Part shown: one piece after another, positions 50,556-57,556 of the stretch
Position numbering within the stretch: the first letter of the stretch is position 1
Layout: each line of letters starts with the position of its first letter
Source: an uncultured Selenomonadales bacterium
GTDB taxonomy: Bacteria; Bacillota; Negativicutes; Selenomonadales; Selenomonadaceae
Direction: 5' to 3'
Assembly (NCBI GenBank): GCA_900314765.1
Contig: OMWN01000024.1
Location: 1 to 64,000, forward strand
Length of the DNA stretch: 64,000 bases
Translations under genes and position numbers: made by a program
Notes under the pieces: model-generated
The model's database searches: none
Seen by the model: the letters and a program-made list of their open reading frames with translations, nothing else
Told to the model about the DNA's origin: nothing

Positions 50556-51431
50556 TTAATTCTGTAACAGAGGCAAATATTTTTTTTGCTCACTAGGAGA
50601 AATGTTAAGTATATCCATGGCGTGTTTTGCTGATGTCTTTAAACTGCGCATTATACTCTTTATATTGTTAATACGTTCTTTCTTTGTTCCAATTTCCTCA
50701 CCTTCTTCGCGCATGAGGTCGGCGTAAGCCTTTTCGTCAAATTCATAGAGTATCATATCGAACACCTCCGTCTTGTGCTGCATGAAATATGTTTTCAGTA
50801 TTCCTTTGTCGATGCATTCATCGACTGCTTGCTTTATTGCGTCTTCAAGCGTCATGCCTTTTGACTGGTTGTCACGTACCATCTGCACGAATATAGCATA
50901 GCCGTCGAGTGCCTTGCAGCGGCTCATTATTGTCTTGTTATGGCCAGCATTGATGTTTATCACGTGCGCCGTCCATTCGTAGCCGGGCGAGGGCTTTATG
51001 AATGCATCGGAGAGTTTTTCGTCCCACATCTCGGGCATTTCCCTGTCCGCATTGCACATGACAAAATATTCTGGAGCGGGTATCTTTACAAGCTTCGTGC
51101 CATATATGCGCTTGTCAAGTTCGTTCTTGATAAGCCATTCCTCATATTCGCGTGCGGCATAGAAGAACCCCCTCAACGGCATGTTTTTGTTTATAGTGCT
51201 CTGCTGCTCGAAAAGGTCAATAGAGTCATGTAAAAGAACGGCAACATCATTCTTCATTGTCAAGTACAATGCATTTTCAAGCGTCACGATTTTGAGATTG
51301 TCAATATCAGTGTAGTTCGTATCGTTCACCGCATTGAAGAGCGACAAAGCATTTTCTTTGTACGAGAATAGATTGACAAACAGCCTGTCCTTGTGTTTTC
51401 GCTCAACCGTGAAATGTTGTTCATTCTCCAT
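50556..51431 (-). CDS. Rpn-type PD-(D/E)XK nuclease, second locus
   Basis: A 291-residue relative of the recombination-promoting nucleases. RKHKDRLFVNLFSYKENALSLFNAV at the N-terminus, an Asp in VAVLLHDSIDLFEQQS with E-x-Q, and the conserved PLRGFFYAAREYEEWL and KIPAPEYFVMCN. The C-terminal part (FDMILYEFDEKAYADLMREE and a Lys-rich helix) varies in the family. ATG after AAGGTGGTGATG. A partial copy of its 3' part lies just beyond its stop. Confidence 0.85.
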   Translation of the reverse strand: MENEQHFTVERKHKDRLFVNLFSYKENALSLFNAVNDTNYTDIDNLKIVTLENALYLTMKNDVAVLLHDSIDLFEQQSTINKNMPLRGFFYAAREYEEWLIKNELDKRIYGTKLVKIPAPEYFVMCNADREMPEMWDEKLSDAFIKPSPGYEWTAHVININAGHNKTIMSRCKALDGYAIFVQMVRDNQSKGMTLEDAIKQAVDECIDKGILKTYFMQHKTEVFDMILYEFDEKAYADLMREEGEEIGTKKERINNIKSIMRSLKTSAKHAMDILNISPSEQKKYLPLLQN

Positions 51432-51707: not shown

Positions 51708-53996
51708 CTATGCCGCAAATGTCGCTTTCGACGTTATTTCCTTTATGCGACCAAATATTTTCTTCCACACGCTTTCTTTGTCTTTGAAAAGTTTCGTGAG
51801 GTCGACGCCTCTGAATGGCTCTTTGCTCGGCTCGACGTCTATGCTGCCGTTGCGCGCGATGTATTGGATGATTTTCTCGACGAAGTCCATCTGGCTGCGG
51901 CTCAGCCTGTTCTCCGTCAAAAATTCGCGGAACGCGTCACGCACAGACTCCTCGTCCATGCCCACTATCCTGCGCACGAGCTCGCCAAGCGGCTCATTCT
52001 CGTAGTTCTGCGCATAGTCCTCGCGCGTGCCGAGCTCCTGCCAGAATATCCGCTCGAGCTCGCGCATGTCGCTCATAGTCATCGGCTCGTTGTGCCTGAG
52101 CTTGTAGACCGCCGCATTGTCCATGTGCTCCTTCAGATAAAACTCCACCTTCTGCCGATAGCTCTCGGACGCGGTGGGCGGCCTCAGCTTCTCACCCTCG
52201 CCCTCCTGCACCTCATCAGAGAAATCTGTATATACATAGAATGTCTGCTTCGGCTTAATATACTGCATCAGCGACCGTATCTCGCGCCGCACGCTCTCGA
52301 TGTCGAGCGGCGTCGCATCCTCCCAGTATGCTTGGTGCCTTATGCGTTCTATCGTCTCGCGGTGCGCCGCCACCTGCGGAATATTCTGCATCGACGGCTG
52401 CGCGAGCTCATTCGCCGCACCCTCTGCTGCGGCTATCATGCCATCGGCCTTGTCCATCGCGCCCTCCACCGCGCTCAGCAGGATGCTCAGCATCAGATGG
52501 TCAAACCGCCGCACCTTCTCATCCTCGCGCCTCGAGATGAGCGGCGCTATCTCGTTCTTGAGCTCGGCGAGCGCGATGTCGTTCAGCGCGTTCAGATTAT
52601 ACACCTGCCTGTACTTTTCCACTGCCCGCAGATGGCGCTTCACGATAAAGCTCCTGTCATCGAGTGCCATGACCGCCGCGTGGAGCTCATTCACGAATTC
52701 ATCGTGGAGCTTTTTGAGCTCGTCATCCTTGACGCTCTGCAGCGTCTTCGCCACGCGTGCCTTCAGCATGAATACGCGGCTCGAGAGCGACAGCGGCAGC
52801 TTCTCATTGCTCTCCTTGTTCCTGTCCTCGCCGAAATACGCGAAATTGCCGCCATAGTCAAAAATGAGGAAATGATCCTTGTCCTGCCCCGTGCCGAATA
52901 GATTCGGCCTGAGCCGTGTGCCGCGTCCGATCATCTGCCAAAATTTGCTGTACGAATGAACTGCCTTGAAAAATACGAGATTGACAATATCCGGCACATC
53001 GATGCCCGTGTCGAGCATATCAACCGACACCGCGATTTCAGGATTGGCGCCCGTCTTCTTAAATCTGTCCACGATGTCCTCGGCGTAGTCGATGCTGTAG
53101 TCTGCCTGCTGAATGAAGTCGTCGCCGAGCTCGGGGTACATCTCGTGGAAGCACTCGACGATGAACCGCGCGTGCTCCGTGTTCTTCGCGAATATGATTG
53201 TCTTGCCGAGCTTGTCGCCGCCCTCGATGTGGATGCCCTCATCCATCAGTCGCGCGAGCACCTTCATCACGGTATCTTTGTTGAACAGCCATTTGTTGAA
53301 CGCGGACGACTCCACGTCATATCGCCCCGTCTCACAGTCCTCCGCGACCACGCCGAACATGTCCTCGAACTCGGATTTCTCGCTCTCGCTGAGGTCTTTG
53401 TAGCGGAGCCCTCTGTTGAGGAACTTCGTCGTGTACGTCTTGAGCTCGTAGTCGACGAGATACCCCTCACGCACCGCCGTCTCATAGTCATAGTTGTACG
53501 TCGGCACGCCGTCCTCGAGCTGAAATACACGGTACGTGTCGCGCCCGACCTCCGACTTCGGCGTGGCCGTGAGCCCAAGCAGCACCGCGTCGAAATAATC
53601 GAAAATCTCTTGATATTCCTTGTAAATGCTCCTGTGAGACTCATCGATGATGATGAGATCGAAATGCCCCGGCGAGAACATCCGCCGCCCGTCGTCCTCT
53701 CTCTTGTCGATGGCGTTCATCATCGTCGGGTACGTCGAGAATACAATGCGGCTCGTCGTCGGGTCCTCTTTATTGTCGAGCAGATTACAGAGCGTCAGCT
53801 TGTTCTTGAAAAACTCGGTAAACGCCGTCTTTGCCTGCTTCACGAGCGCTTTCCTGTCCGCGAGGAAAAGGATATTTTTTGCCCTGTTGTACCGCGTCAT
53901 CACGTCCGTGATGCTGATGGCCACGCGCGTCTTGCCCGTGCCCGTCGCCTGCACGATGAGCATGCGCCGCTGATGATGCTCGAGCGCCAAGGCCAT
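51708..53996 (-). pseudogene. hsdR: Type I restriction HsdR, N-terminally truncated
   Basis: HsdR is the motor and nuclease subunit of type I restriction enzymes, normally about 1000 residues. This 762-residue frame begins at the Walker A region (MLIVQATGTGKTRVAI) and keeps the helicase motifs: IIDESHRSIYKEY, LGLTATPKSEVG, VSVDMLDTGIDVPDI and QMIGRGTRLRPN, plus the C-terminal helical domain. The N-terminal PD-(D/E)XK nuclease domain is absent. No hsdS is present and hsdM is cut short, so the system should not restrict. A separate helicase role is not excluded. Confidence 0.85.
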
Positions 53997-54058: not shown

Positions 54059-54214
54059 TTATGGTTTTTTGAAAACAAATAGATACTCATGCGCAAGGAG
54101 CAGAAAATTATATTTTACGCTGTTCGTTTTCCAGTAGCCCGTCGCTCGGCAATTATGCTGTTCCTTTATGATAATTTCCTTCGTGCGAAATCCCGCTGCT
54201 TCGAAACCCCTCAT
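54059..54214 (-). pseudogene. C-terminal fragment of a DNA methyltransferase
   Basis: A 51-codon open stretch ends in QHNCRATGYW, then YNFLLLAHEYLFVFKKP and a stop. This pattern is the C-terminus of DPPY-type DNA methylases. Catalytic parts are missing. It lies between the DpnI-like gene and the truncated hsdR, and marks a recombination scar. Confidence 0.65.
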
Positions 54215-54219
54215 CACAT

Positions 54220-55179
54220 TTAATTTTTATCATTATAAAGTTCTATTTCGTACCCTTTAAAATCATCAGTATCGAGCACGATTTTTTTGTCCTTGTACGC
54301 GTCACGAATTTTTTGCACAGCCTCGCCTGCGCTCTTCGCTTCCACGTTCACGACCCTCTGCAAATATTCACGCACCTCTACCTGAAATTCTTTTTTGCCA
54401 GTAAGTTTTCTCGTCTTTTTGTAGTGCCCTCTACCATCTGTAAATTCTATAAATCCTTTATCGCGCAATATTTGAAGTTGCTGACGAATTTTCGCGTTTA
54501 TATTTTTATTTTCGACGTGTTTTTCTTTCAGCATTGCGCTAAATTCGTACATCTCACTCAGCGAAAATTCATCGTCCTTCATTTTATCAATGCATTTCAG
54601 CACGTCCATGAGCCATCCGCGCATTTCGAGATTGCGTGTCTCAAGTGATGCTGTCTGGCGAATTTTGTCAACGACTTCGTCAGCGGGCAATTCTGCACCA
54701 TTTTGGATTACAGGAATAATGCCGCTCGATGGGATTTCCGACCACACAATTAAGCAGCCTGTCCATCCACCACGCCTCGCACTCGCTCTGATTGGCGCTC
54801 TTCTCTCTATTATCTCAGGCACGAAAAAATATTTTGGTATCGCCCAAAAATTCTCGACGTGATAATCACTTTTCGCGTATTCCATGACAAACAAATCGGG
54901 ATTGTCGTTGCTGTTCAGCCGCGCAATCATCGTATTGTACGCGCCATCATTTATTTTGCGACCAAAATGGCCTCCTATCGCCTTAAGTTCGTACGTATTA
55001 TGACAATCGGGGCAATAAATATCAGCAACTGGTCGATTATTCATGCAATGCGCCAAATGCCTGCTGCCGCATCGCACGCAATAGAGATTTTTCACAGCCC
55101 AGTCCTCAGTAACGACGCGCGTCTTCTGCTGCGGGCTTTTGTAACCGTCGGCAAGTCTTTTGTCCATGAATAAATTCAT
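54220..55179 (-). CDS. DpnI-family methyl-directed endonuclease fused to a DpnD/PcfM domain
   Basis: DpnI cuts GATC only when its adenine is methylated. This 319-residue protein follows DpnI closely: the zinc cysteines C34, C37, C56 and C59, and the catalytic D53 (RPVADIYC), E64 and K66 (YELKAIGG), are all at DpnI numbering. The methyl-reading winged helix (RGWLMDVLKCIDKMKDDEF to QLQILRDKGFIEF) is intact. After residue 255, where DpnI stops, a 65-residue DpnD/PcfM-like domain follows (KKEFQVEVREYLQRVVNVEA). The fusion is unusual, since dpnD is a separate gene in pneumococcus. It looks active. Start at ATG 55179 behind AAGGGG. Confidence 0.92.
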   Translation of the reverse strand: MNLFMDKRLADGYKSPQQKTRVVTEDWAVKNLYCVRCGSRHLAHCMNNRPVADIYCPDCHNTYELKAIGGHFGRKINDGAYNTMIARLNSNDNPDLFVMEYAKSDYHVENFWAIPKYFFVPEIIERRAPIRASARRGGWTGCLIVWSEIPSSGIIPVIQNGAELPADEVVDKIRQTASLETRNLEMRGWLMDVLKCIDKMKDDEFSLSEMYEFSAMLKEKHVENKNINAKIRQQLQILRDKGFIEFTDGRGHYKKTRKLTGKKEFQVEVREYLQRVVNVEAKSAGEAVQKIRDAYKDKKIVLDTDDFKGYEIELYNDKN

Positions 55180-55318
55180 CACAATGTGCCCCTTTTCGTC
55201 GAATTAACTATCACTCCTTAGTATAATTTTTATCTTTTGTCGTGTCTACACTCACACAAAATTTTTCTTCATACTATACTATAAATTTTGTTGTATCAGA
55301 TTATTTTGCAAATCAAAT

Positions 55319-55513
55319 TCATGGCTCATCCTTATATATCTCAACTTCGTAGCCTATGAAGTCAGAATCATCGAGCACAATTTCTTCGGCTTTGTACGCA
55401 TGGAGAACTTTCAGCTCCGCCTCATCCTCGCTTGCTGCTTCCACTTCCACAATCCTTTGCAAATATTCTCGCACCTCTACCTGAAATTTTCTTTTGCCTG
55501 TTGGTTTCGTCAT
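55319..55513 (-). CDS. Free DpnD/PcfM-like protein, derived from a broken DpnI-DpnD copy
   Basis: A 64-residue protein (KRKFQVEVREYLQRIVEVEA to DDSDFIGYEVEIYKDEP) very like the last domain of the DpnI fusion. Directly upstream (55514-55565), another frame reads GFIKFKDGRGHYK, the DpnI end. Compared with the intact fusion there is one extra base at AAAAATGACG, which shifts the frame and creates an ATG with GGGGG upstream. So this is the tail of a second fusion gene whose body is gone. DpnD function is unknown. Confidence 0.75.
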   Translation of the reverse strand: MTKPTGKRKFQVEVREYLQRIVEVEAASEDEAELKVLHAYKAEEIVLDDSDFIGYEVEIYKDEP

Positions 55514-55574
55514 TTTTGTAATGCCCCCGTCCATCTTTAAATTTTATAAATCCATTTTTCGTTTTTTCAATCCA

Positions 55575-56468
55575 TCACAAAATAATTTTCCCACGCCCGT
55601 TAGCCTTGCTGTTTATCATCCTACTCGCAGCTATACGATGAATAATTTGCCTGCCATATAATTCATCGAAAAAATCATCGTTCTGATTTTCATTTTTAGG
55701 ATCAGAGTTACTCAGCAAAACGTGAGCGCCTTTGTTAATCAATTTCTGAACAAAGTCTGCGAGTTCCTTTTGCGCATTGTCATCAAAGCCGCCCGCTGTA
55801 TAGTTGGTGAATGAAGACGTCTGATTGAGCGGTCTATATGGCGGGTCAAAATATGCAAAAGTTTTATCGTCTATGAAATTCGCCGATTTTTTATAGTCTG
55901 CGCAAACCATTTCCACATTTTGAAGCAATGACGATATTTTTCTCAGATTTTCTTCATCGCAGATTTTGGGATTTTTATATGCGCCTGAAGGTACGTTAAA
56001 CAGTCCTTTTTTATTTACGCGATAAAGACCATTGAAGCATGTGTGGTTGAGAAAAATAAATAATGCCGCACTTTCAATGCTGTCCTTGCTCGTGCCATCA
56101 TTAATTAATTCGTTGTATCTTGCTCGCTTTTCATAAAAAAATTCTTTTCGGCTAGCAGTGTCACGCGCCAAATATTTTTCCTCAAAAACATGAAGCATCT
56201 CAAGCAATGCATCGACGTGAGCTCTCACACTTTTATACATATTTATCAATTCGGGATTTATATCGCTGATATAGACTTCACGCATTTTATAATTTGATAG
56301 CACATCAAAAAGCACTGCCCCGCCGCCGATGAATGGCTCAGCATATTTGTCTATGTCGTTGCCTAAATCCTTCGGATAGCGCGCAACTATCTCATTCACG
56401 ATTTGACCCTTGCCGCCAGCCCATTTCACTATTGGATGCACCTTCGTCAGCGCTGAACTATTTTCCAC
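55575..56468 (-). CDS. DpnM/Dam-like adenine methyltransferase, short C-terminus
   Basis: A 297-residue m6A methylase of the Dam/DpnM class. SAM motif KWAGGKGQIVNEIVARYP and AEPFIGGGAV, target-reading HTCFNGLYRVNKKGLFNVP, catalytic FAYFDPPYRPLNQTSSF (DPPY 208-211). These match DpnM, which methylates GATC. The end GRGKIIL is about 8 residues shorter than in DpnM, where the last strand continues. The stop abuts a DpnI remnant, so the gene was clipped by recombination. GTG start behind AGGGG. If active on GATC it would make the genome a DpnI target. Confidence 0.88.
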   Translation of the reverse strand: MENSSALTKVHPIVKWAGGKGQIVNEIVARYPKDLGNDIDKYAEPFIGGGAVLFDVLSNYKMREVYISDINPELINMYKSVRAHVDALLEMLHVFEEKYLARDTASRKEFFYEKRARYNELINDGTSKDSIESAALFIFLNHTCFNGLYRVNKKGLFNVPSGAYKNPKICDEENLRKISSLLQNVEMVCADYKKSANFIDDKTFAYFDPPYRPLNQTSSFTNYTAGGFDDNAQKELADFVQKLINKGAHVLLSNSDPKNENQNDDFFDELYGRQIIHRIAASRMINSKANGRGKIIL

Positions 56469-56501: not shown

Positions 56502-57248
56502 TTATAATTTTGATCCAATGCAATGTCTATCCTCGCGCAAAATTCTCGTCCTGTCCATGTCGTACCCGTGGAACATCGCGTTATTGAAATGCTCCGCGAG
56601 ATGCATGTCGACGTCGAGCTCGTCGCCGTAGTGCTCGCGCACGTACATCTCCGCGCCGACGAGGAAGCCCGCACTGCCCATCGCGGGGTCCACGATGACG
56701 TCCGTCGGCTGCGGCGCCACCATCTCCACCATCATCTTGATGATGTGGCGCGGCGTACGAAACTGCCCGTTCGTGCCCGACGTCGCGATCTTCGAGAGCA
56801 GATACTCGTAGAGGTCGCCCTTGCTGTCCTCTTCATCGAGCGAAAGCGTGTCGATGCCCTCGATGATGGACGCGAGCATCGCAGGCGTCGGGATTTTGAA
56901 TATCGCGTCGCCCATGTACTTCGCATACGCCGAGTCACCGTCGGGGTGAAGCGACTTGATGAATGGAAACACGCCCTTCTCGACAATCGTGTATATCTCC
57001 TCCGCCGAGCCCAGCTGCTTGAACTTGCTCCAGCGGTACTGCTGCTGATCGGCACCGAACAGCGCATGATAATCGCTCATGCCCATCATCATCGCGTTCT
57101 TCTCCTGACGCGTCTCGATGTCATCCAGCTGCTTGATGAAAAGAAGATACGTGAACTGCTCAATCACCTCCAGCGGATTAGAGATTCCACCCGAGTAAAA
57201 TATATTCCAAATGCGGTCAATCTTGTTCCGCTCCTCGCCATGCAGCAT
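56502..57248 (-). pseudogene. hsdM: Type I methyltransferase HsdM, C-terminally truncated
   Basis: HsdM is normally about 490-530 residues. This 248-residue frame has the N-terminal helical domain (IWNIFYSGGISNPLEVIEQ, LLFIKQLDD), the SAM-binding region (TPRHIIKMMVEMVAPQPTDV and DPAMGSAGFLVGAEMY), and ends in GYDMDRT, where family members continue MLRI. After that the sequence is foreign. The catalytic NPPF motif is lost. An alternate frame (TGREFCARIDIALDQNYNKE) over the last 60 bases hints at a tail from another gene. Confidence 0.85.
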
Positions 57249-57556
57249 GATACCCCTCATTTCCCTGTCTCAGATTCATATATGATTCTAATTTGACATT
57301 CGCGTGAAAAATCCTTCTTTTTGTTGAAAAATTCTTCCTTCCGCATGCGTGCGATTGATGAGCAAAGCAAAAGAGGCTGTGCAGCAGCGAAAAACCGCAA
57401 ACTGCAACAGCCCCCTTTATCACGCCTATTCGTCGACCAACAAAGAGAAAGTTTGATATTGCCCTGCTTGCAAGCGAGCAGGGCATTTTCGCTATTTGCC
57501 ATACAAGGATAAATAAAATATTTATAGGAGTATAAACAAATTGTTTAAAATAAAAA
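57249..57556. other. Intergenic region upstream of hsdM
   Basis: Contains an imperfect stem (GGCTGTGCAGCAGC...GCAACAGCC, about 57371-57411) but no gene I can support. Confidence 0.4.

Follow-up and report, generated by a model that had tools for sequence, protein, structure and literature searches.

The genes for a DpnI-type nuclease and a DpnM-type Dam methylase that lie side by side on the minus strand of the 64 kb stretch of DNA analyzed here (the window) very probably mark the replacement scar of a cassette exchange, as judged from sequence comparisons, and not a self-cutting pair. An earlier note on this DNA had pointed out that a cell expressing both enzymes in active form should cut its own DNA, and had offered three ways out: the Dam is dead, it has another target, or a DpnD domain fused to the nuclease (or regulation) restrains the cutting. 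The first is the best supported of the three, in that the C-terminal strand is lost in every dpnI-linked dam that we examined and fragments of a displaced operon adjoin the pair. The apparent paradox is explained in this way, and a general rule emerges that a whole dam is not found together with an intact dpnI: the entry of dpnI into a dam operon appears to leave dam without its last strand, repeatedly and across phyla.

The nuclease gene (54220..55182, minus strand) encodes 320 amino acids and was assigned by Pfam (DpnI, E = 1.5e-65; DpnI_C, E = 5.4e-32; DpnD-PcfM, E = 1.7e-15) and by alignment with DpnI, whose solved structure 4ESJ aligns with residues 2–256 (E = 5e-71). Its PD-(D/E)XK catalytic domain (54637–55179) keeps the zinc cysteines and D53/E64/K66 (DpnI numbering) in that alignment, as had been read from the sequence before, and N48 and R126 are also kept. 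The catalytic domain is followed on the same strand by a C-terminal winged helix of the DpnI_C family (54415–54627) and by the DpnD domain (54253–54387), which is fused in frame. The m6A-binding residues of DpnI are L129, R135, W138 and G140 (PMC4117772); the alignment shows the last three to be kept and L129 to be replaced by Ile. We infer that this nuclease is functional and that Gm6ATC-methylated DNA entering the cell is restricted by it.

The adjoining dam (55575..56468, minus strand; 297 aa) was identified as DpnII type by Pfam, alignments and AlphaFold2 models. Its product matches Pfam D12 with E = 3e-60 and TIGR00571 ('dam') with 274 bits against a cut-off of 115, and its nearest solved structure is DpnM (2DPM, E = 7e-49); taken with the Pfam and 4ESJ matches of the nuclease, these assignments show that the pair described earlier is real. 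The reading frame of the gene is open and is preceded by a ribosome-binding-like sequence, and the protein contains the KWxGGK and FxGxG motifs and the DPPY motif noted previously, with all 39 residues that are invariant in intact Dams retained. The reported shortage of about 8 C-terminal residues was likewise confirmed: the protein terminates in RGKI-IL, compared with RGKISELLISNF in relatives, having lost SELLISNF, and the strand that follows the RGK/RxG region (E-L-L-I-S-N-F and near variants) is absent. The window Dam is thus similar to DpnM/Dam (2DPM; TIGR00571) in its fold, its AdoMet and DPPY motifs and its GATC-type loop, but differs in that the last β strand is missing. In Rossmann-type methylases, the last strand belongs to the central sheet. 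A first AlphaFold2 model was short of its last strands, in part owing to truncated rows in its alignment, and we relied on a second, deeper model, the alignment of which included full-length viral Dams. This model has the Dam fold (TM to 2DPM, 0.74/0.85) with a 3-residue stub, modeled at low confidence, in place of the last strand, and pLDDT is 49–58 over residues 281–297. The open frame, the retained invariant residues and the modeled fold speak against a dead enzyme. Nevertheless, the clipped Dam probably no longer methylates GATC, chiefly because of the rule observed in 20 other loci and the well-preserved DpnI alongside. A second D12 methylase (361 aa, with an insert, an intact IITNY end and a score above the TIGR00571 cut-off) is encoded on another contig of the same genome (C94; L122, 657–1742); if it made Gm6ATC, the DpnI of the window would be lethal.

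We surveyed 189 Selenomonadaceae genomes and found a DpnI match in 33; many of the surveyed genomes are draft or metagenome assemblies. Pieces of GATC-type restriction–modification operons (dam, dpnII, dpnA or a DUF6996/6997/7226 enzyme) occurred at 24 of the 33 dpnI loci. At nine loci of the family dam lay directly upstream of dpnI, and the C-terminal strand was lost in all nine; it was kept in every one of 26 dams of the family or class without a dpnI neighbor (19 single-domain and 7 fused) and in five of five viral Dams. Outside the family, scanning a genome collection with a single DpnI protein found nothing, and a scan with an alignment yielded 80 named dpnI loci from many phyla. A dam or a piece of it was directly upstream of dpnI in 13 of these loci (Planctomycetia, Oscillospiraceae and other Clostridia, Anaerotignum, Flavobacterium, Bacteroidales and Bacteroidetes), one of which (G136) had already been counted in the family, and the strand was absent from all 13. 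Overall, the strand ('ELLISNF') was absent from 17/17 dpnI-linked dams and from 4 shorter fragments, and present in 31/31 dams without a dpnI neighbor.

The dpnI-linked dams end at varied points, from residue ~30 through the fifth strand ('GAKVVV', residue ~250) to close to the end (~294), and the Dam of the window is the least cut among them. On a tree of 48 Dams, at least 13 changes are required to account for the truncated proteins, and their grouping as a single clade was rejected (p-AU 2.5e-5), although these changes do not amount to exactly 13 truncation events, because dam bodies recombine. The junction sequences agree with the tree in suggesting repeated truncation, about 14 distinct ones being present in the 17 longer cases.

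Truncated dams mostly keep clean reading frames, more so than old junk would, and the decay of conserved residues did not separate truncated from whole dams. Such conservation could mean that the truncated Dam is kept as a non-catalytic partner, either a DNA-binding regulator or a helper of DpnI: core residues are retained and frames open in nearly all of the 17 cases, many junctions fall at the same β5 strand ('GAKVVV') in unrelated lineages, and the reading frames of the truncated dam and of dpnI are often overlapping or almost contiguous. However, the dam ends scatter from residue ~30 to ~294, many dpnI loci have no dam beside them at all, the lysine of the KWxGGK motif is lost in L202 and the G143 dam contains stops. 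Moreover, intact dams often serve as a source from which dam bodies are renewed (as in G175 compared with G016b), which explains the conservation without a function, and we regard a retained partner as very unlikely. We set aside dN/dS on the truncated dams because the histories of dam and dpnI disagree (recombination) and most divergence predates truncation.

The earlier note had proposed a survey of related genomes for co-occurrence of the two genes. Among the 189 family genomes, ~31 carry a whole dpnI and 24 a whole GATC-type dam, with an overlap of 0 where 3.9 would be expected (P = 0.01, kinship ignored). Seven fused dams of 630–650 aa, which look like GATC Dams and which we take to resemble two-domain FokI-type methylases, were left out of this count. 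We also covered 50 dpnI-carrying genomes of other groups. None of the genomes examined had both genes intact, with weaker D12 matches remaining in some of them, and mutual exclusivity was upheld: where both genes seemed to be present, one was broken. G216 has a whole dam-dpnII operon and an internal stop in dpnI, the dam of G236 lacks its N-terminal 80 residues, G378 (same class) has dpnI and a frame-broken dam, and G139 has a whole dam and only a 31-aa fragment of dpnI. The sole Dam of G235 is fused (636 aa) and of another type.

We computed the avoidance of GATC on the window and the loci. The window contains 64 GATC sites in 64 kb compared with 276 expected (0.23), and the observed/expected ratio was 0.32 at family loci with truncated dam and dpnI, 0.47 at dpnI loci without dam and 0.73 at intact dam loci. 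A previous study reported avoidance of GATC for 38 out of 42 genomes encoding DpnI-like type IIM enzymes, all of them dam- (PMC4687349). The avoidance fits past GATC restriction and gives no date for it. Two other tetranucleotides are scarce in the window too, CTAG at 0.27 and CCGG at 0.45 of expectation. The 64 remaining sites bear on the possibility that both enzymes are active, with Dam still a GATC methylase and DpnI held in check by the fused DpnD or by low expression. The Dam is indeed almost full length, none of the tested invariant residues being lost, and the in-frame DpnI-DpnD fusion was found only in this genome among ~110 loci. However, those sites would be lethal targets, every other dpnI-dam neighborhood shows damage in at least one gene and at many junctions, and DpnD is ordinarily a separate neighboring frame, as beside dpnI in 25 other loci. 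We found no positive evidence that the fused DpnD restrains the nuclease, and a self-targeting pair in check is very unlikely.

The surroundings of the pair also bear traces of replacement. In minus-strand order, the window contains an hsdM piece, dam, a stray dpnD, the dpnI-dpnD fusion, a short dpnA frame and hsdR. The hsdM remnant of a type I methylase (56502..57260; 252 aa; Pfam matches limited to HsdM_N and the beginning of N6_Mtase) is 72% identical to residues 1–234 of the 488-aa HsdM of G014 and is broken after that. Comparison with G014 likewise shows that the hsdR remnant (51708..53996) covers residues 381–1143 of 1143 at 66% identity, its N-terminal part being gone; full-length relatives have ~1130–1180 aa. 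Because hsdM stops at 234/488 and hsdR starts at 381/1143, the GATC cassette sits inside a gutted type I system. Right after the dam stop, a reading frame abutting it (55515..55574) encodes the last residues of a DpnI winged helix (GFIKFKDGRGHYK); next comes a copy of dpnD (55319..55534; Pfam DpnD-PcfM, E = 7e-13) that is 59% identical to the fused DpnD, and tblastn matched DpnI residues 252–319 to 55325–55528. The segment 55319–55574 is what is left of an older, nearly erased dpnI-dpnD pair. Beyond the fusion, 54065..54220 (short frame 54217–54059) retains only the C-terminal 52 residues of dpnA, the second methylase of a DpnII operon (248 residues when complete), and is 83% identical to residues 197–248 of the G189 DpnA (E = 6e-24); no match to dpnII was found in the 48–60 kb stretch of the window. 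The remnants of dpnA and of the older dpnI/dpnD are absent from the earlier note, as are the broken type I genes that flank the cassette on either side. Farther along, 50556–51431 encodes a 291-aa protein without a Pfam match, which presumably resembles the Rpn/PD-(D/E)XK transposase-like family.

Within the family, intact dam-dpnII-dpnA operons occur in G185, G189, G164, G156 and G046. They encode a Dam of ~356 aa with an N-terminal HTH-like prefix and the end RGKIxELLISNF, then a Pfam DpnII enzyme and a 248-aa N6/N4 methylase, which we call dpnA from its operon position. The arrangement of truncated dam, dpnI and dpnA is found in G010, G171, G175, G178, G182 and the window, and the adjoining operon fragments indicate that dpnI took the place of dpnII within a DpnII operon. 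These operons also bear on the suggestion that the target of the Dam is a sequence different from GATC, which would remove the conflict. Specificity cannot be read from sequence alone, and Dam-family proteins with other targets exist. However, the window Dam groups with the Dams of operons whose partner is a Pfam DpnII enzyme, and its nearest solved structure is DpnM; another target is very unlikely.

Comparison of related loci suggests how replacement might proceed. Between G171 and G178, which belong to one genus, dpnI differs by 0–0.8% over 600 bp, whereas the truncated dam differs mostly by 14–25% and dpnA by ~16–24%. Up to its junction, the truncated dam of G175 differs by 0–6% from the G016b dam, which is intact, and the dpnA of G171 is mostly 1.5–7% from that of DpnII-bearing G185. 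Similar dpnI genes amid divergent truncated dam and dpnA genes imply that a dpnI core moves between operons with the dam and dpnA of resident DpnII systems, and homologous recombination in the dam/dpnA arms would be the simplest reading. As for carriage of dpnI by plasmids or phages, we found only a 6.6-kb phage fragment and two Neisseria records that are labeled as plasmids but have the size of chromosomes. In the series of events that we propose, a dam-dpnII-dpnA operon, itself nested in a type I restriction operon, would have had its dpnII gene replaced by dpnI(-dpnD), and the exchange would have removed most of dpnA together with the 3΄ end of dam. With the clipped Dam inactive, host GATC would be unmethylated and safe from DpnI. 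The flanking dam and dpnA would serve as homology arms for swapping the dpnI core into DpnII operons, a pattern seen in relatives. Swaps leaving dam whole would presumably kill the cell, so that every surviving junction would have a broken dam. If the idea of arms is correct, a modification-dependent nuclease spreads via the wreck of the system that it replaces, and the many truncated dams annotated as working methylases are untrustworthy predictors of GATC methylation. In L177 (5001–7458), a whole dpnI-dpnD and a methylase are followed by a second dpnI 3΄ end and dpnD, much like the remnant in the window; there and in the window, the dpnI 3΄ end with dpnD may be a recombination arm.

The window is a case of the known drg and pneumococcal DpnI-DpnII kind of dam replacement. 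In Neisseria, drg (dam replacing gene), a gene for a DpnI-type Gm6ATC nuclease, is inserted at the dam locus and dam is truncated (PMC4269198, PMC516771), and some gonococci have a DpnII-like gene after drg (PMC4269198). The window similarly has a dpnI-type gene at a dam locus with a truncated dam, and a DpnII-like gene follows dpnI in several surveyed loci. The window differs in its phylum, in the dpnA debris and older dpnI/dpnD remnant, in the type I nesting and in a Dam that lacks only ~8 residues. In Streptococcus pneumoniae, DpnI and DpnII are alternative, interchangeable cassettes (PMC12707154, PMC4263131). The loci surveyed here resemble them in that alternative GATC systems are exchanged at one locus and are never both active. 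Whole cassettes exchange between shared flanking genes in pneumococcus, whereas pieces of the displaced operon remain here, apparently serving as recombination arms. We did not find the breadth of this pattern or the uniform loss of the Dam C-terminal strand described in the literature.

Several loci combine dpnI with other enzymes. Full-length dpnA lies beside dpnI in several genomes without dam or its end (L116, L118, L119, L120, L083 and L084), and GATC methylation by such a dpnA would matter for DpnI. In G105 (L106, 5212–6826), dpnI is followed, with an overlap of ~2 bases, by a DpnII enzyme that is apparently complete with catalytic motifs, and no Dam was found in this assembly; a similar dpnI/DpnII-like gene order occurs in gonococcus (PMC4269198). 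If both enzymes of G105 were active, every GATC state would be cut. In G112 (L103, 5509–7604), dpnI is followed by a full-length frame for a DUF6996/6997/7226 enzyme, with no dam; the same type of enzyme adjoins the intact dam of G139 (L099) and may therefore be a GATC-related restriction enzyme that is new to the literature.
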